DNA of 7,111 bases from Oscillospiraceae bacterium (lineage in GTDB: Bacteria; Bacillota_A; Clostridia; Oscillospirales; WRJC01), in assembly GCA_009782405.1 (NCBI GenBank), contig WRJC01000089.1, positions 1 through 7,111 on the forward strand, given 5' to 3'. The position numbers and the translations under genes are program-made. Shown piece by piece: positions 1-7,111 of the stretch. The stretch's first letter is position 1, and every line of letters begins with the position of its first letter. The notes beneath the pieces were generated by a model. The model searched no databases, had not been told where the DNA came from, and was given only the letters and a program-made list of their open reading frames with translations.

Positions 1-456
1 GACAAATGGGCGGAAGATATTGTCCCCGGGGATTTCATATGCCTTGACATATGCGGGCTCGACGTGGGGCTGTTGGGCTCGAACAATACGCTGAACTGCA
101 CAAACAAGGGCGCGGTCGGGTTTTTGCTCAACGGCGGGGGGATCAGGGACACGGACGAAGTGATACTCCAAAAAATCCCGGTGTTCACAAAACACGCATC
201 GCAGCCCATGGACCAGGCGCGCATAAGGTACCACGAAAAAAACATCCCGATAGCCATAGGGGGCGTGGCCATATATCCGGACGATCTGGTCGTCGCGGAC
301 GGCGACGGGATAATAGTCGTGCCGTGTAAATTGATATACGATGTCTACAAATACGCTTACCAGGAGATGAAAAACGACAAAATCCAAAGGCGCGGCCTGT
401 ACGAAAAAGGCGGCCGCGAATTTGACGGAACAGTTGACGTCTCGATATTGAATTGA
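1..456 (+). CDS. RraA-family protein (aldolase/RraA-like), 5' end outside window
   Basis: The reading frame is open from the first base and gives 151 residues, so the true start lies upstream. The RraA fold signature is clear. A glycine-rich stretch runs into G-G-G-I-R-D (arginine 49 and aspartate 50, counted from the window edge) with a glutamate three residues later, the R-D-x2-E part of the divalent-metal aldolase motif. Further on come P-V-F, then G-G-V-A-I-Y-P-D-D, and A-D-G-D-G-I-I-V-V-P near residues 87-108. Family members include the RNase E inhibitor RraA and 4-hydroxy-4-methyl-2-oxoglutarate/oxaloacetate-type aldolases; many are annotated as demethylmenaquinone methyltransferase by error. 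Because R-D-x2-E is present, a small-acid aldolase or decarboxylase role is more likely than RNase E regulation, but the substrate cannot be read from the sequence. The C-terminal 40 residues after the core are charged. A 79-base gap separates it from the next gene. Confidence 0.85.
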   Translation, partial: DKWAEDIVPGDFICLDICGLDVGLLGSNNTLNCTNKGAVGFLLNGGGIRDTDEVILQKIPVFTKHASQPMDQARIRYHEKNIPIAIGGVAIYPDDLVVADGDGIIVVPCKLIYDVYKYAYQEMKNDKIQRRGLYEKGGREFDGTVDVSILN

Positions 457-535: not shown

Positions 536-1432
536 ATGCATAATGAGAACAAAACAACAAACGCGAACAGAAAATATAAAGACAGCGTGTTCACCAAGCT
601 TTTCGGCGAGAAAGATAAACTTGCGGAATTATACAACGCGATAAGCGGCGCAAATCACAAACCAAACGAAATAAAATTGATAACATTGGAAAATATCATA
701 TTTATCGGGCGCGAAAACGACATAGCGTTCACTGTAGGCGATAGATTTATTGTTTTGGTGGAGCACCAATCTTCGATAAATCCGAATATGCCGTTGAGGT
801 TTTTGCTTTACATCGCACGGCAATATCAAATGATAACGGACAGTGAGGCGATGTATAGCTCGCGCATGATGAAAATAATGCCGCCGGAGTTTATAGTGGT
901 ATATAACGGCAAGGACGAATACCCGGAAAAATCGACTTTAAGTTTGTCCGACGCTTTCATTGACAAAAATGCAAGCAGCCTGGAATTGAAAGTGAAAGTC
1001 TACAATATCAACAAAGGATACAATCCTGAAATCATGCGCCGGAGCGGCACGCTGAATGAATACTGTATTTTCGTAGCGCGGGCACGCGAAAACGCGGCCG
1101 CCGGGCTCGAATTGGCGGCGGCATTGGAAAAGGCAGTCAAAGATTGCATAAGGGAAAATATATTAAGGGAAATTTTGAAAATATATGGAAGTGATGTGAT
1201 TAGTATGTTGAGCATGGAATGGAATATGGACGATGCCTTGAGAGTCAGGGAAAAAGACGGTATGGAAAAAGGCATGGAAAAAGGCATGGAAAAAGGTATG
1301 AAAACAAAAGCAGAAATAGTAGCAGAAAAGATGCTAAAACGTGGAACACCGATAGAAATAATCGCCGAAGACACCGAACTGTCAATCGAACAAGTGAAAA
1401 AGATAGCGAAAAAATTAAAACAAAATGGGTGA
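536..1432 (+). CDS. Rpn-family recombination-promoting nuclease / putative transposase (PD-(D/E)XK)
   Basis: The 298-residue protein has the layout of the Rpn (YhgA-like transposase_31/PDDEXK) family. The N-terminal Y-K-D-S-V-F-T-K-L-F-G-E segment (residues 14-25) is typical of Bacillota members. The nuclease core shows N-D-I-A-F (D62) followed by the beta strand V-L-V-E-H-Q-S-S (E76, Q78), matching the D...ExQ form of the PD-(D/E)XK active site. Residues 243-254 are three perfect M-E-K-G repeats, a charged helix linker common in these proteins. The last 30 residues (G-T-P-I-E-I-I-A-E-D-T-E-L-S-I-E-Q-V) resemble a small helix-turn-helix. Family members cut DNA and promote RecA-independent recombination; activity here is not shown. 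The length is normal and no frameshift was seen. The ribosome binding site is weak (GGG five bases before ATG), so the start is the longest plausible one rather than a certain one. The LRR gene follows after five bases. Confidence 0.85.
   Translation: MHNENKTTNANRKYKDSVFTKLFGEKDKLAELYNAISGANHKPNEIKLITLENIIFIGRENDIAFTVGDRFIVLVEHQSSINPNMPLRFLLYIARQYQMITDSEAMYSSRMMKIMPPEFIVVYNGKDEYPEKSTLSLSDAFIDKNASSLELKVKVYNINKGYNPEIMRRSGTLNEYCIFVARARENAAAGLELAAALEKAVKDCIRENILREILKIYGSDVISMLSMEWNMDDALRVREKDGMEKGMEKGMEKGMKTKAEIVAEKMLKRGTPIEIIAEDTELSIEQVKKIAKKLKQNG
1262..1297 (+). repeat. Three tandem 12-bp in-frame repeats (M-E-K-G)
   Basis: Three copies of ATGGAAAAAGGY lie head to tail, and a fourth ATG follows. 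Each copy encodes Met-Glu-Lys-Gly in the Rpn-family gene. The third copy differs from the others only in its last base (GGT rather than GGC). The unit is a multiple of three, so gain or loss of copies changes linker length without a frameshift. Confidence 0.9.
1427..1432 (+). promoter_or_regulatory. Ribosome binding site of the LRR gene, overlapping the Rpn stop codon
   Basis: GGGTGA lies five bases before the ATG at 1438 and contains the TGA stop of the Rpn gene. This arrangement suggests that the two genes are translated in a coupled way from one transcript. Confidence 0.6.
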
Positions 1433-1437
1433 AATAA

Positions 1438-1887
1438 ATGGGAAAATCTGCCCGAATTATATTGTTTGTCTTGGTGCCTTTGCTTTTTTTATTAATCATA
1501 TCGATTCCAATAGCAATTTTTGTCATTGATTCGAATAGTCAGAAGCATAATAGCTACATAACCATAAAAAACGAACAGTACGATGTTACTTTGACGGAAC
1601 TTTATTTGTATAGAATGGACCTTTCAAATGCTGACATAGAACCTTTGAAATATATGACCAAAATTACGTATTTGTATTTTTGGGACGACCAAATCAGCGA
1701 TATAAGCGCGTTGAGCGGATTAATTAAATTAGAATGGTTGGATTTGGATGGCAACCGAATCAGCGACATAAGCGCGTTGAGCGGATTGGTCAACTTGGAA
1801 CGATTGTATTTGAAAAATAATCCATTGACGCAAACCCAAATAGACGAATTGCGAAAAATGCTTCCTGATTGCGATATTTATTTTTGA
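1438..1887 (+). CDS. Small membrane-anchored leucine-rich repeat protein
   Basis: The 149-residue protein has one strongly hydrophobic segment at residues 7-30, after a short basic N-terminus, with no lipobox and no clear signal-peptidase site. It is best read as an N-terminal signal anchor with the rest outside the cell. From residue 52 on there are four 22-residue leucine-rich repeats of the internalin/SDS22 type (pattern L-x-x-L-x-L-x-x-N-x-I-S-D-I-x-x-L), at about 52-73, 74-95, 96-117 and 118-142. The last one ends in a typical cap (L-T-Q-T-Q-I-D-E-L-R-K-M-L-P-D-C). Such repeats form a curved protein-binding surface; no catalytic domain is present and the partner is unknown. Repeats two and three are almost the same, which suggests recent duplication. 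The gene starts five bases after the Rpn-family stop and is rich in A and T. It faces the solute-binding protein gene tail to tail. Confidence 0.85.
   Translation: MGKSARIILFVLVPLLFLLIISIPIAIFVIDSNSQKHNSYITIKNEQYDVTLTELYLYRMDLSNADIEPLKYMTKITYLYFWDDQISDISALSGLIKLEWLDLDGNRISDISALSGLVNLERLYLKNNPLTQTQIDELRKMLPDCDIYF
1693..1788 (+). repeat. 66-bp-period direct repeat inside the LRR gene
   Basis: A 30-base block at 1693-1722 recurs at 1759-1788, exactly 66 bases (22 codons) later, with only two mismatches, both in third codon positions. It encodes I-S-D-I-S-A-L-S-G-L in both copies. The near identity at DNA level points to recent duplication or gene conversion of one repeat unit. Confidence 0.85.
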
Positions 1888-1941: not shown

Positions 1942-3426
1942 TCAATCCTCTATGCTCGCCACGAATTTTTCGATTGCGGAGATCACTTTCGGCTCTATTT
2001 TTTCATAGGACGAACTGTATGTGTTTTCGCCTTTTAAAATCAAATTTTGGACAGTGCCGGATATGTTGCCGAAATCCGCGTAGAGCCCCAAATCATAGAC
2101 CGTGGATTTGAAGATGATGTCGAGCATTTCGTTCGATTCCTCGTCGCGCGTGTATTTTCTGGTCAGACACATGTCGTAATACGCGGGCTTTATTATCTTT
2201 TCGCCGTAAAAGCCCATCGCGTCGAATATATACGCGGTTCTTTCCGGGTCCGAAACGGTTTTGGGCATCATGTAGCAATATGTGTGGTAGGCGTTGGTCG
2301 AAGTGTAATAGCGGCTTTGGGCCTCGTCCAGCTTTGGGATGGGAATGATCCCGAAATCGTGCTCCACGCCCCGGAGCTGCCACTGTATATAGTGCAGCAT
2401 TATCCCGTTGAACAGCGCGCGCCCTTCCGGGAACAGCCAGAACGCGCTCAAATGCGCGTTGTTCGCGTCGCGGGTGGTGTCCCAGGAATAATCCCTGAAA
2501 AAATCCAAAAATTTGTCTATGGCCATGTTCATCCTCTCGGTGTTTGCCATCGTGTACGGGATGTCGTCGGCATTTTTGTACATATATTTCAATTCCGCCC
2601 CGTTTATGACCGCCCCGACTATGTCGCCCTGCTGGGCATATCCCCACATATCGTCTTTGTCCAAGATCCCGTCGCCGTTGACGTCCTTCGTGACCGCTTT
2701 TACCATTTCGCCCATCGCGTCAAGCGTCCATTTCCCTCCGCTGACAATCGGGTAAGGGGAGGAAAGCCCGTGCTCCTGCAATATCTGCTTGTTGAAAATA
2801 AGCAGCATGATCCCGTCGTAATGTTTTGTGAAAGCGTCGCCTGTGATCGTGTACAGTTTTTTTGCCACCGACAAATTTTCTATGCAGTTCTGGTCATACC
2901 AGGATTCCCCGAGCGAAAGGTTTTGGAGCGCCAGCAGATCGGCGCAGTACGTGATCAAATTCCAGGCTGAATTGAGGCGGGGAAGAACCAGATCGTATTC
3001 GTCGGTGCCGGCGTTCACCGTTTTTTTGACGTCGCCCGATATGTCGCCTTTGTTTATGCTGGAAAATTTCACGTTGAAATTATCCTCGAGGGCGAGCCTG
3101 CGCTCATACAGAGCGTCGTTATATACATCCCCGATGGCTTCCTCGATCTCAAAATCCTCGTAGTACAGGCCGTTTCCGTTTTGGTCCTCCGCCGTGATGA
3201 GCCTGAAGACATATCCGCCGAAATCCAAAGTTTCGTGCGGGAAAATCTTTTCGGGTTCGGCGGGCGCTTCCGCTTCCGCCTCCGCCGGATCCCCGCCGTC
3301 TTGGTTTTGCTGCGCATTGTCCAAATCATCCGATTTTTGCGCGTTGTCTCCGCACGAAGCAAGCACAGTCGCCATTGCCGCGCATATCAGCGCCAGGCAA
3401 AAAACGCGAAAATTTAAATTCTTCAT
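1942..3426 (-). CDS. Lipoprotein extracellular solute-binding protein (ABC sugar transporter type)
   Basis: The 494-residue protein starts with a lipoprotein signal peptide: a basic start, a hydrophobic core at residues 7-23, and lipobox L-A-S-C with cysteine 25 as the lipid-bearing residue. A flexible acidic/alanine/proline linker follows (about 26-62). The mature part has the size and style of family 1 extracellular solute-binding proteins of ABC carbohydrate importers. D-V-N-G-D-G-I-L-D-K-D-D-M-W-G-Y (248-263) is an EF-hand-like loop seen in many sugar-binding lipoproteins and may bind calcium. W-L-F-P-E-G-R-A-L-F (330-339) and F-G-I-I-P-I-P-K (358-365) match conserved strands of the family. 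Aromatic residues suit sugar stacking, but the ligand cannot be named. It is the second gene of an operon, 19 bases after the GH38 mannosidase, so a mannose-containing oligosaccharide is a reasonable guess. No permease or ATPase gene is in the window. Confidence 0.88.
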   Translation of the reverse strand: MKNLNFRVFCLALICAAMATVLASCGDNAQKSDDLDNAQQNQDGGDPAEAEAEAPAEPEKIFPHETLDFGGYVFRLITAEDQNGNGLYYEDFEIEEAIGDVYNDALYERRLALEDNFNVKFSSINKGDISGDVKKTVNAGTDEYDLVLPRLNSAWNLITYCADLLALQNLSLGESWYDQNCIENLSVAKKLYTITGDAFTKHYDGIMLLIFNKQILQEHGLSSPYPIVSGGKWTLDAMGEMVKAVTKDVNGDGILDKDDMWGYAQQGDIVGAVINGAELKYMYKNADDIPYTMANTERMNMAIDKFLDFFRDYSWDTTRDANNAHLSAFWLFPEGRALFNGIMLHYIQWQLRGVEHDFGIIPIPKLDEAQSRYYTSTNAYHTYCYMMPKTVSDPERTAYIFDAMGFYGEKIIKPAYYDMCLTRKYTRDEESNEMLDIIFKSTVYDLGLYADFGNISGTVQNLILKGENTYSSSYEKIEPKVISAIEKFVASIED

Positions 3427-3446: not shown

Positions 3447-5788
3447 CACTTTAACTTTATTTTCAGCGTGGCTATTTTGAATTTGGGCAAAGCCGCGCTG
3501 TAATTTTTTGCATATTCATAATTTTTGCCATCCAGCGGGTTTTCGAGCATGTCGCATTCGCACACAAAAACCTCTCTTTTAAAATCGATCGCGGCCTCGC
3601 ATCCTTCGCCGGTGGGGTCGTAAAAGCGTAAAACAAACGCTTGGCCGTCTTCCGAGGGCTTGAACGCCGTAAGTATCGCGCCTCCTGTAATTTCAAAAGG
3701 CAGCTCTATTTTTTCGCGCCGGTTGTAATTGTGCGCTATTTTTGCGATATCGCCGATTTTTTTGGCGTCGCGGTATGCCAAAACGGCAAACTCGAAACTG
3801 TGGCTTCCCTGATCGCGGAGCCCTGCGATATCGTTAAAGTCATAATGCGCCTGTTCGTTAACGCAAAAATTGCATTGCGGCGAACGCAGAAGCGACAATT
3901 CCATGCAGCCGGGATACCAGCGGTAACACGGCAGCCCGCGGTTCAGCACGGCGACGCCGCAGCTTTCGTCTATTGTGCGCAGGACGAAATTTTGCGCCGG
4001 ATATTCCATGGAATTTGGCGACCATGCCTCATAGGCCAGTTTTTTGGGGTCGTATTTTCTCTCTATATGCCCGAACGGAACCTCGAAAATCGCGCCGTTT
4101 TCAAAATTGTTCACGGGAAACAGCACTTTAATCCTCCTGCTGTCCGCTTCCCAATCCATATCGATTTTAAACTCCAAAAGCCCGTTTTCGCCCGCGCCCA
4201 GCTCGGTTGTCCATTCGAGCTTTTTCACCATATAATCCGTGCCGGCATATTTTCCCTCCCAGACGACCGAATCCGTGCCGGCTTTTTTTACGCGCTGGAA
4301 ATCCCCGAGGGGCACGAGGTTCCAATTGTTTGAGGGGCCGAATTGCGGCGGCACCCTTGTGGCCCATGCGTCCCCGACATCCTGCTCGAGGCACAGTTCG
4401 GCTATCCTGAAGGGGCGGCGCACCCTGCCGTAGGGCATCTCCCTGAATATTTGCTTTTCTTGTTTGCCGATTTCAATGTCTTTTATCCCCATATCGTCAA
4501 AAATTATCTTGTTTCCTCCTAAGACAATGCTATAATCGATTCCGTTTTTTTCGCCGCAACCGGCCTTTTCGCATATCCCGGAAGGTTTTGCGCCCGGTTT
4601 TTTGTATTTTTTTGTGACCGCTTCGACTTCGCCCAAAAATCCTAAAAGTTCGTCATACGCGTTGTCTATATGGGTGCCGGTGACAGCATCGTGAAATTGG
4701 CAGAATGTCAGAGTTTTCCACGCTTCCCGTATATCTTCCGGGAGCTTTCCGGCTTCGCCCCTGCGCCAAAATTCATCGGCGAGCCTCGATTCCATCGCAA
4801 GGAGCAGATACGCAAGCTCGCGCACTTTTTGTTTTAGTTTTATCCTCGACACATAACAGCCCGAAAATACCGGATTCAAATCCGGGGATATTTCGAAACT
4901 TTTTTCGAGGGCTTCATGCACCTCGCTTTTCACGTGGTCATATATGTCGGATTCGGTGCCGAAACGTATGTCTATTTCCGGATATTTTCCGGACATTTCC
5001 GCTATCGCCTTTCCCAGATCCGGTTCGGGCAAAAGTTCCTCGCCGCCCACTTCCAGCGCGATCATTTCAAGATTTTCCTCGTCGAGCAAATTCGCGGCGC
5101 GTTCAAGGGCGGAGCGGATCGCATCGATTCCAAGCGGCTCTATGAGTTTCATGCCGGTTTTTGCGCAGGTTTCGCAGCCTTCGCCGAGGCAGTCCGGGCA
5201 ATACGGATGTTTTTCGAATCCGCCCAAGCCCATGCTTCTGTAAAATCGGTCGAGCACCGCGACTTTGGAGCCGTCTATGCCGACCCATATGTTTTCAGGC
5301 GGGGTTATGTAGCAAAACTTGCAAACGGCCTCCCCTCCGACCCCTTTTATGATTTGCGGATAATTGGGGCTTGAGCCGAATGCGTCTTCTATCCATACGA
5401 GCTTCAAATCTTCCGGATGCGCCCCAAGCGAGTTGTATAGCGGCGCGGCGCATAAAAAATTCCGTATCAGCCCTTCCGGGGCGGGCAGGTTGGTGTCCTG
5501 AACGGTCCAGCCCGCCATCGGCACGCAGATTCTCCTGTCCGCGATTCCCTTTTTCAACCTTTCGATTTTTTCGGGGCTGTTTTTGTTTCTTTCCATGTAT
5601 TTTTCCAGAACGGCCGCCTGCCCTTCGGTGAAAGTCTGGCGTAAATCCAGCCATTTGTCTATGATGATCTCTTCGAGCCGGGCGTATGAGGCCAAAGTTA
5701 TGTTTCCAAGCCGCGCTTCTTTGTCGAAGCAGCGGCGCCATGTCGGGTCAAAGTGATTGTGCGGGACCACTATTATTCTTTTTTTCAC
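3446..5788 (-). CDS. Glycoside hydrolase family 38 alpha-mannosidase, cytoplasmic
   Basis: This 780-residue enzyme should release terminal mannose from alpha-mannosides with retention, using a divalent metal. The GH38 signatures are in order. P-H-N-H-F-D-P-T-W (9-17) supplies metal ligands H12 and D14. V-W-I-E-D-A-F-G with P-Q-I downstream (131-146) carries the expected nucleophile and metal ligand D135. G-C-Y-V-S-R-I-K-L-K (310-319) begins the middle domain. Q-F-H-D-A-V-T-G-T-H (364-373) gives the fourth metal ligand H366. Residues from about 420 to 780 form the beta-rich C-terminal region. These positions were set by comparison with Drosophila Golgi mannosidase II (H90, D92, D204, H471). 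There is no signal peptide, so it probably acts on imported oligosaccharides. It is somewhat shorter than many bacterial GH38 enzymes. Unusually it has three C-x2-C pairs (156/159, 197/200, 205/208) near the catalytic domain. The start is GTG with a good GGGGGA site eight bases upstream. Confidence 0.92.
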   Translation of the reverse strand: MKKRIIVVPHNHFDPTWRRCFDKEARLGNITLASYARLEEIIIDKWLDLRQTFTEGQAAVLEKYMERNKNSPEKIERLKKGIADRRICVPMAGWTVQDTNLPAPEGLIRNFLCAAPLYNSLGAHPEDLKLVWIEDAFGSSPNYPQIIKGVGGEAVCKFCYITPPENIWVGIDGSKVAVLDRFYRSMGLGGFEKHPYCPDCLGEGCETCAKTGMKLIEPLGIDAIRSALERAANLLDEENLEMIALEVGGEELLPEPDLGKAIAEMSGKYPEIDIRFGTESDIYDHVKSEVHEALEKSFEISPDLNPVFSGCYVSRIKLKQKVRELAYLLLAMESRLADEFWRRGEAGKLPEDIREAWKTLTFCQFHDAVTGTHIDNAYDELLGFLGEVEAVTKKYKKPGAKPSGICEKAGCGEKNGIDYSIVLGGNKIIFDDMGIKDIEIGKQEKQIFREMPYGRVRRPFRIAELCLEQDVGDAWATRVPPQFGPSNNWNLVPLGDFQRVKKAGTDSVVWEGKYAGTDYMVKKLEWTTELGAGENGLLEFKIDMDWEADSRRIKVLFPVNNFENGAIFEVPFGHIERKYDPKKLAYEAWSPNSMEYPAQNFVLRTIDESCGVAVLNRGLPCYRWYPGCMELSLLRSPQCNFCVNEQAHYDFNDIAGLRDQGSHSFEFAVLAYRDAKKIGDIAKIAHNYNRREKIELPFEITGGAILTAFKPSEDGQAFVLRFYDPTGEGCEAAIDFKREVFVCECDMLENPLDGKNYEYAKNYSAALPKFKIATLKIKLK

Positions 5789-5796
5789 AAAAATAT

Positions 5797-5802
5797 TCCC
5801 CC
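5797..5802 (-). promoter_or_regulatory. Ribosome binding site fixing the GTG start of the mannosidase
   Basis: On the - strand GGGGGA lies eight bases before GTG at 5788. No in-frame ATG gives a protein that keeps the full H-x-H-x-D metal motif, which lies only ten residues from the start, so GTG is the likely start. Confidence 0.7.
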
Positions 5803-5832
5803 AATCGCCATCGCGAATATTTTTATGTAAGC

Positions 5833-5861
5833 ATTATACCATATGCGGCAAAATATTTCAA
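5833..5861 (-). promoter_or_regulatory. Sigma-A-type promoter of the mannosidase / solute-binding protein operon
   Basis: Read on the - strand, the -35 box is TTGAAA (5856-5861), the spacer is 17 bases, and the -10 box is TATAAT (5833-5838), preceded by TGG, which makes an extended -10. Transcription should start near 5826, leaving a leader of about 38 bases before the GTG start. Confidence 0.8.
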
Positions 5862-5873
5862 GATATTTGAAAT
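5855..5873. promoter_or_regulatory. Inverted repeat, candidate operator over the -35 box of the mannosidase promoter
   Basis: ATTTCAA (5855-5861) and TTGAAAT (5867-5873) are perfect inverted 7-mers separated by GATAT. The left arm covers the whole -35 box of the leftward promoter. The right arm ends seven bases before the -35 box of the pyrB promoter. The 19-bp size and half-site spacing suit a dimeric repressor, but the sequence is AT-rich and no regulator gene lies in the window. Confidence 0.5.
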
Positions 5874-5879
5874 TTTATA

Positions 5880-5908
5880 TTGACAAGCCATCGCCCGTGC
5901 TGTATAAT
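5880..5908 (+). promoter_or_regulatory. Consensus sigma-A promoter of pyrB
   Basis: TTGACA (5880-5885), a 17-base spacer, and TATAAT (5903-5908) match the consensus at every position. The start site should be near 5915, only about 32 bases before the pyrB ATG. That leaves no room for a PyrR-type attenuator or a long leader. Confidence 0.88.
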
Positions 5909-5930
5909 ACTGTATTTGGAAAGAATTTCA

Positions 5931-5938
5931 AAAGGAGG
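5931..5938 (+). promoter_or_regulatory. Strong ribosome binding site of pyrB
   Basis: AAAGGAGG lies eight bases before the ATG at 5947. This near-perfect match to the anti-Shine-Dalgarno sequence fixes the start. Confidence 0.9.
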
Positions 5939-5946
5939 AAAGATTT

Positions 5947-7005
5947 ATGTTTTTTGATTTGATCGATTTCAGCGATTTGGCGCTTGCGGACTGGGAACAG
6001 CTGCTCGAGCTCGGATTTGACATTTGCGAAAATCCCGCCGCCTACCGCGAACGCCTCAAAGGCAGAATTTTGGCGAACCTGTTTTATGAACCCAGCACGA
6101 GGACGAATCTGTCGTTTCAGGCGGCCATGCAAAGGCTCGGGGGCGGGGTTATCGGTTTTTCCGGGACTTCGGCCACTTCCGTATCAAAAGGGGAAAGCCT
6201 GAAAGACACCGTGAAAATCGTATCCAACTACGCCGACGCGGTGGTCATACGGCATCCAAGCGAGGGCGCGGCGTATGCGGCTTCCATTTACTCCAAGCTG
6301 CCGGTGATAAACGCGGGCGACGGGGGGCATCTCCACCCGACCCAGACAATGGTGGATTTGTTCGCGATCAGCAAGCTCAAATCCAAAAAAATGACGGGGC
6401 TTGCCATAGGGGTTTGCGGCGATCTGCTGTACGGGCGCACCGTCCATTCGCTCCTCCGGGCCTTTTCTTTATACAAAGACAACACTTTTTATCTCATATC
6501 CACTCCGGCTTTGCAAACGCCGGAATATTTTTTATCCGAACTCAAAAAAAGAAACGAAATAATAATGGCCGAAACGATAGAGGAATGCATAGATAAGCTC
6601 GATATCATATACATGACCCGGATACAGCGCGAGAGATTTGAAAACGAAGATGACTGCAATGCGCAAATCGGGATATATGTGCTCGATAAAAACAAATTGA
6701 AAAAAGCCAAAGACGATCTGGCGATTTTGCACCCTCTCCCCAAAAACGACGAAATTTTCGCGGAAATCGACGACGACCCGAGGGCGAAATATTTTTACCA
6801 GGCGGAACTGGGGATGTATATACGGATGGCGCTGTTGATCAAGATCCTCGAAAATCCCAAACCTCGCGTTTCGGCAGCGGCACAAAACACCGGAAAAAAA
6901 TGCCAAAATGCGACATGCATAACAAAAACCGAAAAAGCCCTGCCAAACATAGCCAAAACAAGCGGCGGCAAAACAATCTGCGCCTATTGCGAAAACGAAA
7001 TTTAA
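5947..7005 (+). CDS. pyrB: Aspartate carbamoyltransferase catalytic chain with C-terminal PyrI-like zinc domain
   Basis: The enzyme joins carbamoyl phosphate and L-aspartate to carbamoyl aspartate, the committed step of pyrimidine synthesis in the cytoplasm. Compared with E. coli PyrB, the active-site residues are present: S-T-R-T at 50-53, K81 from the mobile loop of the neighbouring chain, R102 in R-H-P, H130 and Q133 in H-P-T-Q, R164 in Y-G-R-T, R225 and Q227 in T-R-I-Q, and L264 in H-P-L-P. The catalytic part ends near residue 303, as expected for a chain of about 305-310 residues. About 49 more residues follow: a short linker, then C319-x4-C324-x20-C345-x2-C348. E. coli PyrI binds zinc through C-x4-C-x23-C-x2-C, and flanking matches (C-x-N-x-x-C-I and C-x-Y-C-E-x-E) make homology likely. 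The roughly 100-residue allosteric domain of PyrI is missing. The gene has its own consensus promoter and is divergent from the mannosidase operon. Confidence 0.95.
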   Translation: MFFDLIDFSDLALADWEQLLELGFDICENPAAYRERLKGRILANLFYEPSTRTNLSFQAAMQRLGGGVIGFSGTSATSVSKGESLKDTVKIVSNYADAVVIRHPSEGAAYAASIYSKLPVINAGDGGHLHPTQTMVDLFAISKLKSKKMTGLAIGVCGDLLYGRTVHSLLRAFSLYKDNTFYLISTPALQTPEYFLSELKKRNEIIMAETIEECIDKLDIIYMTRIQRERFENEDDCNAQIGIYVLDKNKLKKAKDDLAILHPLPKNDEIFAEIDDDPRAKYFYQAELGMYIRMALLIKILENPKPRVSAAAQNTGKKCQNATCITKTEKALPNIAKTSGGKTICAYCENEI

Positions 7006-7036
7006 CCTTTTTCCAAAGCCGCGCCTCTATATCTTA

Positions 7037-7048
7037 TGCAGGCCTGCA
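7037..7048. repeat. 12-bp perfect palindrome downstream of pyrB
   Basis: TGCAGGCCTGCA is a perfect palindrome in the 68-base gap after pyrB, followed by AAAATTTTC. It could be a weak terminator or a protein-binding site, or chance. The lack of a loop and of a T run argues against a good terminator. Confidence 0.3.
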
Positions 7049-7073
7049 AAAATTTTCATACCGGGGGTGAGCC

Positions 7074-7111
7074 GTGAGCTCGGAATACGAAAAAATCGTC
7101 AACGCATACAA
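7074..7111 (+). CDS. Start of an unidentified gene, 3' end outside window
   Basis: A GTG codon follows GGGGGTGA (7063-7070), a good ribosome binding site, and opens a frame reading M-S-S-E-Y-E-K-I-V-N-A-Y up to the window edge. An in-frame TGA just upstream (7068-7070) limits the start to this GTG or later. A GTG at 7067 in another frame is also open, but its product (M-S-R-E-L-G-I-R-K-N-R) looks less natural and the spacing is worse. Twelve residues are too few to name the protein. A pyrimidine-pathway gene is possible from position alone. Confidence 0.5.
   Translation, partial: MSSEYEKIVNAY

Follow-up and report, generated by a model that had tools for sequence, protein, structure and literature searches.

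The window, by which we mean the whole stretch of 7,111 nucleotides that was analysed, carries near its downstream end a frame in which the catalytic chain of aspartate carbamoyltransferase (ATCase), PyrB, runs on into a zinc domain of the kind that the regulatory chain, PyrI, carries. Its features are the following:

1-453, plus strand: end of an RraA-like gene (Pfam)
536-1429, plus strand: YhgA-like putative transposase/nuclease (Pfam)
1438-1884, plus strand: small leucine-rich-repeat protein (Pfam)
1945-3426, minus strand: frame without a Pfam match at E 0.01
3449-5788, minus strand: glycoside hydrolase family 38 protein (Pfam)
5880-5908, plus strand: candidate sigma-70-like promoter, TTGACA-17-TATAAT, with 12 of 12 consensus positions (consensus match only)
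5933-5938, plus strand: AGGAGG ribosome-binding site, read from the sequence, upstream of the ATG at 5947
5947-7005, plus strand: pyrB-zinc fusion gene, 352 codons from the ATG, then a stop
5956-6372, plus strand: carbamoyl phosphate-binding domain, residues 4-142 (PF02729, OTCace_N, 141.7 bits)
6397-6840, plus strand: aspartate-binding domain, residues 151-298 (PF00185, OTCace, 90.8 bits)
6862-6900, plus strand: linker of about 14 residues (approximately 306-318) between the catalytic domain and the zinc domain
6898-7002, plus strand: PyrI-type zinc domain, residues 318-352 (PF02748, PDB profile search, fold search, cysteines shared by all 120 listed homologues)
6901-6903, 6916-6918, 6979-6981 and 6988-6990, plus strand: codons of the zinc-site cysteines

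Three promoter-like sites occur in positions 5780-7111, against 1.9 expected, and an Rfam search for an RNA element ahead of the fusion gene matched nothing in the window, even with E values up to 1 allowed. In the nearest named relative (L001:11207-14642), the fusion gene is followed by an adenine phosphoribosyltransferase gene and, further on, by one for a sigma-70 family protein; a plus-strand frame cut by the end of the window (7075-7111) resembles the beginning of the latter, by eye only.

An earlier note on this DNA, made from its letters alone, had described a complete catalytic chain, and our searches bear this out. Both OTCace_N and OTCace are found, the protein passes the NCBIfam equivalog for aspartate carbamoyltransferase (TIGR00670; 310.1 bits, cut-off 236.95), and the active site is kept, with equivalents of all eight of the E. 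coli residues S52, R54, K84, R105, H134, R167, R229 and Q231. The match of the catalytic domain to solved ATCases stops at residue 304-305. At residue 237 (6655-6657) the window has Cys where E. coli has Tyr240; the other 78 of the 79 aligned fusion sequences have Tyr.

The zinc tail and the missing nucleotide-binding domain

The tail reads as the earlier note had described it, C319-x4-C324-x20-C345-x2-C348, and the chain does end just past the zinc site, its last residue lying four beyond C348. The same note had taken the tail for the zinc domain of PyrI and suggested a profile comparison with the PyrI C-terminal family (PyrI_C, PF02748), in which the 49-residue tail by itself scores 27.8 bits (E 2.3e-6), above the curated cut-off of 23.4; the whole protein scores 22.1 bits (E 1.4e-4), slightly below it, and scores in sister groups of the window reach 45 bits. 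Against the PDB, a single-sequence search with the 59-residue C-terminal end gave weak matches, the best of them (E 0.045) to an ATCase regulatory chain. A profile of 47 tails found 12 sequences with E below 0.001, the next match following at E 0.14, and all 12 are ATCase chains of regulatory-chain length aligned over the zinc domain. A fold search with the modelled tail likewise led to the ATCase regulatory chain; with the whole window model, only catalytic chains stood among the matches listed, because the catalytic domain fills the list. The tail has both the C-x4-C ... C-x2-C pattern and the zinc-domain fold, and its identity as a PyrI zinc domain is supported by the family match (above the cut-off for the tail alone) and by the PDB-profile and fold searches. 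A chance motif or another kind of zinc ribbon is excluded, since the tail profile hits ATCase regulatory chains alone below E 0.001 and the fold searches agree. The structure model of the window protein has a pTM of 0.90, with pLDDT values of 87-92 in the tail and 78-80 in the linker, and a tail so confidently placed in a full-chain prediction fits one that packs against the rest of the protein.

The tail is not peculiar to this gene. Of 8000 candidates scored in a homologue search, 7670 lay at E 1e-60 or better, and every one of the 120 listed, at 54-99% identity, ends in a four-cysteine tail of the form C-x4-C-x(16-26)-C-x2-C. The few that carry names are Oscillospiraceae, Ruminococcaceae, Clostridiales and Clostridia metagenome-assembled genomes. 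Across 47 diverse tails (alignment A2), the zinc cysteines, N321 and E329 are invariant. A frameshift or sequencing error masking a full PyrI in the true gene is excluded by the 99% identical protein (three member sequences, two contigs) and the other 119 listed homologues, which share the short tail.

The other half of PyrI, its nucleotide-binding domain (PF01948, 93 positions), is absent from the window chain, as the earlier note had held in describing the loss of the allosteric domain. The chain has no space for it, because the catalytic domain ends at 304-305 and the zinc site already begins with C319. That note had also proposed a genome search for a separate full-length pyrI, and among the genomes of the window's relatives PF01948 was found in 0 of 27 with fusion loci, in agreement with its reading; these 27 belong to the 64 fusion loci among 77 loci fetched, and a control search found the domain in 7 of 14 named genomes. 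All but one of these genomes (26 of 27) have PyrI_C, each time within a frame of at least 363 aa; in the remaining genome, G003, the tail (in L003) scores 16.6 bits (E 0.0073), beneath the threshold. By analogy with these 27 genomes, and by analogy only, a separate full pyrI is presumably lacking from the source organism as well.

Distribution and history of the zinc-only forms

To place the fusion more broadly, we use 391 genomes sampled from the class to which the Ruminococcus flavefaciens genome G007 belongs, a class that we read as Clostridia. PF01948 occurs in 155 of these genomes, PyrI_C in 174 by the Pfam model, and the zinc domain in 177 by the tail profile. Comparing the tail-profile and PF01948 lists by hand gives 22 genomes with the zinc domain but without PF01948, which split into 19 with PyrB-zinc fusions (frames of at least 357 aa, 0 of 19 with PF01948), two with stand-alone zinc-only frames (G172 and G310) and one with a fragment (G059). 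The Pfam model at E 0.001 recovered only 15 of the 19 fusions, and Pfam-based counts are therefore low; a first-look set with PyrI_C but without PF01948 held 19 genomes, two of which were set aside. One match, at L125, proved to be a chance PyrI_C hit in a frame with stops. The G059 fragment (L134:1172-1339, the same place as L122) is a 56-codon frame with a zinc-tail-like end, no catalytic domain and other genes alongside, and may be a remnant, a rearrangement or an assembly joint. In a phylum sample around R. flavefaciens, the tail profile found the zinc domain in 13 of 149 genomes, two of them in fusion-length frames; in one around Porphyromonas, the zinc domain occurred in 1 of 148 genomes, the centre genome itself, which has a separate PyrI. 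The PyrB-zinc fusion is a clade-wide architecture, not the single protein as which the earlier note had treated it.

The stand-alone forms are these:

L108:1441-1644, genome G172: stand-alone PyrI zinc-domain gene, 68-codon frame (PF02748, 57.8 bits)
L110:1453-1644, genome G310: stand-alone PyrI zinc-domain gene, 64-codon frame (PF02748, 51.5 bits)

In both loci a tail-less pyrB (TIGR00670; 352 bits in L108, 360 in L110), the zinc-only gene and a dihydroorotase gene, pyrC (TIGR00857; 360 and 367 bits), directly adjoin in that order, and neither genome gave a match to PF01948. Searching proteins for relatives of the 58-aa product of the L110 gene turned up one more cluster of equal length (P0121; 88% identical, six sequences, two contigs), which makes an assembly error unlikely for the stand-alone form. 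The nearest tree relative of the L110 PyrB, from locus L103 (genome G381), is accompanied by a full-length PyrI. The position of these zinc-only genes between pyrB and the dihydroorotase gene, which a full pyrI may also occupy, would suit a zinc domain that acts as the docking plug of a different enzyme, such as carbamoyl phosphate synthetase or dihydroorotase, and so serves channelling. We consider this improbable: a dihydroorotase frame starting within 2.5 kb downstream was found in 0 of 64 fusion loci (one query; in 9 of these loci the downstream sequence is shorter than 2.5 kb), and the domain's familiar docking partner is the catalytic chain itself.

Trees were built on the catalytic domain alone, with rows more than 82% identical thinned, leaving 50 of 112 rows in a first tree and 51 of 116 in a second. 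Three rows, L076, L062 and L092 (the last a separate-PyrI row), were dropped for very long branches. Separate PyrI is represented by the 20 rows with the highest PF02748 scores in the class sample, which is not a random choice. The fusions of the 51-row tree form two clades. The larger (19 rows, support 93/86) holds the window together with relatives of R. flavefaciens and further Oscillospiraceae, and the smaller (seven rows, 95/76) nests within separate-PyrI enzymes; these supports fall under the tree tool's support mark. The fusion clades of the 50-row tree, at 96/94 and 98/87, both carry that mark. A single fusion origin is rejected on both trees (AU p 0.00188 with 51 rows, 0.0112 with 50), a single change appears in 0% of 200 bootstrap trees of the 51-row set, and a quick tree of all 115 rows requires two changes too. 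To judge from these catalytic-domain sequences, the fusion architecture arose at least twice. The two stand-alone cases do not form one clade either (p 0.0187), and the 51-row tree needs four changes for the loss of the nucleotide domain. Related bacteria seem more than once, about four times in all, to have lost the sensing domain while keeping the zinc domain.

The direction of change was probably loss, a polarity set by the outgroup, in which PyrI is seen as a separate gene in E. coli and two Bacteroidota genomes, the only outgroup members checked. In 20 of 20 separate-PyrI loci, and also in E. coli, pyrB and a zinc-bearing pyrI lie within one 3-kb locus, so that one in-frame deletion could fuse the two. 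The likeliest origin of the fusion would be a deletion of this kind across neighbouring pyrB and pyrI, removing the pyrB stop together with the PyrI nucleotide domain.

This history bears on the suspicion that the tail is a functionless remnant of PyrI, as the whole-protein PyrI_C score of the window, below the family cut-off, and the 4 of 19 class fusions missed by the Pfam model at E 0.001 might suggest. We regard that explanation as very unlikely, given that the four cysteines persist in all 120 listed homologues across 54 to 99% identity, that the Asn and Glu beside them are invariant in 47 tails, and that the same outcome was reached in separate lineages.

Contact residues and a proposed working

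In E. coli, PyrI touches the catalytic chain through its zinc domain. A paper on that enzyme (PMC6056424) describes a bond in the R state between Asn111 of PyrI and Glu109 of the catalytic chain, and a substitution of Lys164 that locks the enzyme in the R state and does away with cooperativity. The window has both partners of this bond, as N321 and E106. N321 is invariant in alignment A1 (67 rows: the window plus 66 homologues out of the 120 listed) as well as in A2 (47 rows), and E106 is nearly invariant in the window's closer relatives. Two loci, L129 and L130 (genomes G040 and G077), have Ser for N321, plus a longer linker. The Glu109 equivalent is Glu in 20 of 20 separate-PyrI rows, in both stand-alone rows and in 32 of 79 fusion rows, the window included; it is Ala in 43 and Pro in 4. 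Since Glu is absent from 47 of the 79, the contact is not generally kept among fusions. Docking at the E. coli-type face is likely in the neighbourhood of the window, and elsewhere among the fusions its details must be different. Covariation as a test of docking brought out no clear site: 4 of the 25 top tail-catalytic domain pairs fall in residues 104-119 against 1.4 expected (relatedness uncorrected), and other segments are equally enriched.

At the position of Lys164 the window has Leu. Of the 79 fusion rows, 30 have Lys there and 49 another residue, against Lys in 19 of 20 separate-PyrI rows; in fusion clade II Lys is retained in 8 of 9. The Glu239 equivalent is Asp in the window. Together, the contact residues, the model and the Lys164 data favour an R-like, zinc-clamped trimer blind to nucleotides. 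We give a probability of roughly 60% to the reading that the zinc (docking) domain of PyrI was taken onto the catalytic chain and the nucleotide domain lost, leaving an effector-blind clamped trimer. According to this proposal, the fusion chains would assemble as the usual catalytic trimer, and each zinc domain, held on its short linker, would pack onto the catalytic subunit at or near the PyrI face, where the zinc domains, in place of regulatory dimers, would act as a clamp that stabilises the enzyme and sets its activity. So clamped, the trimer would neither be bridged into a c6r6 dodecamer nor respond to CTP or ATP, and the three zinc domains may keep the enzyme in an active, R-like form. 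The putative non-allosteric role in assembly or stabilisation that the earlier note had assigned to the tail is plausible.

In the T state of the E. coli enzyme, however, the zinc domain of PyrI touches more than a single catalytic chain, and this leaves some room for an arrangement in which the fused domain bridges trimers, by docking on a second trimer or by chain swap, to give a hexamer with aspartate cooperativity and no nucleotide response. Some fusions do keep residues of the T/R transition of the Lys164 and Glu239 type, as the counts for Lys164 illustrate (30 of 79 overall, 8 of 9 in clade II). The window itself has Leu and Asp at these places, and the nucleotide domain, through which two regulatory chains pair up, is gone. 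We therefore think bridging unlikely, though somewhat less so than a docking plug for another enzyme, and keep to the clamped trimer as the preferred reading.

Relation to known aspartate carbamoyltransferases

ATCase is a textbook allosteric enzyme, and the role of its regulatory zinc domain beyond relaying the nucleotide signal has been studied mainly with engineered E. coli pieces. The fused enzyme resembles the class B c6r6 enzyme of E. coli in its class B-like catalytic chain and the same four-cysteine PyrI zinc pattern, but it is without the nucleotide-binding domain and has its zinc domain within the catalytic chain. PF01948, a feature of class B, is absent from the window chain and from all 27 fusion-locus genomes. 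Closer in layout is the full PyrB-PyrI fusion of Thermotoga maritima, where regulatory sequence also stands behind the catalytic chain; that protein, reportedly an allosteric enzyme by the title of Chen et al. 1998 (cited in PMC4581275), has both PyrI domains (both Pfam families in the control genome), whereas the window has the zinc domain only and scores 112.3 bits, far below the cut-off of 800, against the model for Thermotoga-type fused PyrBI (NF009916). A zinc domain acting on the catalytic trimer without the nucleotide domain has a further likeness in the isolated E. coli PyrI zinc-binding polypeptide that Markby and colleagues are said to have found, in 1991, bound to catalytic trimers. 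Their fragment was made in the laboratory, whereas the version in the window is genome-encoded and covalently attached; the two stand-alone zinc-only genes look like the natural counterpart of that polypeptide.

With class C enzymes such as the trimer-only ATCase of Bacillus subtilis, the fusion would share nucleotide insensitivity and the lack of regulatory dimers. In the available text of two reviews (PMC4581275, PMC6022934), bacterial ATCases fall into three classes: class A is combined with dihydroorotase, class B has regulatory chains that are either separate or fused, and class C comprises the trimers, whose chains by definition are without a zinc domain. The window differs from class C in carrying one, so that the class C feature of having no regulatory domain does not describe it, and a zinc-only form is not among the classes given in that text (PMC4581275, PMC6022934). 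As for class A, in which the dihydroorotase can be active or inactive, a frame for that enzyme begins within 2.5 kb downstream in 0 of the 64 fusion loci (one query, with shorter sequence in 9 loci). Among the papers listed in searches of the open full-text literature, a scope outside which most subscription journals lie, no title or abstract opening describes a PyrB-zinc-only form either. Where the sources of the fusion proteins name them, they are called aspartate carbamoyltransferase, some of them "catalytic subunit", and such names conceal that a control circuit is missing from a group to which R. flavefaciens belongs.

The architecture is real, conserved and reached repeatedly. It varies a familiar enzyme and does not make a system of a new kind; what it does besides catalysis is what we infer. 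The odds are about even that it amounts to a further type of prokaryotic ATCase, a trimer that lacks an effector site and is covalently clamped by zinc domains, and that Clostridia evolved this type repeatedly by reducing PyrI to the zinc domain (at least two fused and at least two free cases). If this is true, selection maintains the zinc domain for a task separate from allostery, and a textbook enzyme can shed its feedback control and keep the clamp. Natural enzymes with only the zinc half of PyrI, in two covalent and two free-standing lineages, are found beside close relatives with the whole regulatory chain, and a comparison of the zinc-only with the whole-PyrI relatives would be a direct way to tell the two roles of PyrI apart.
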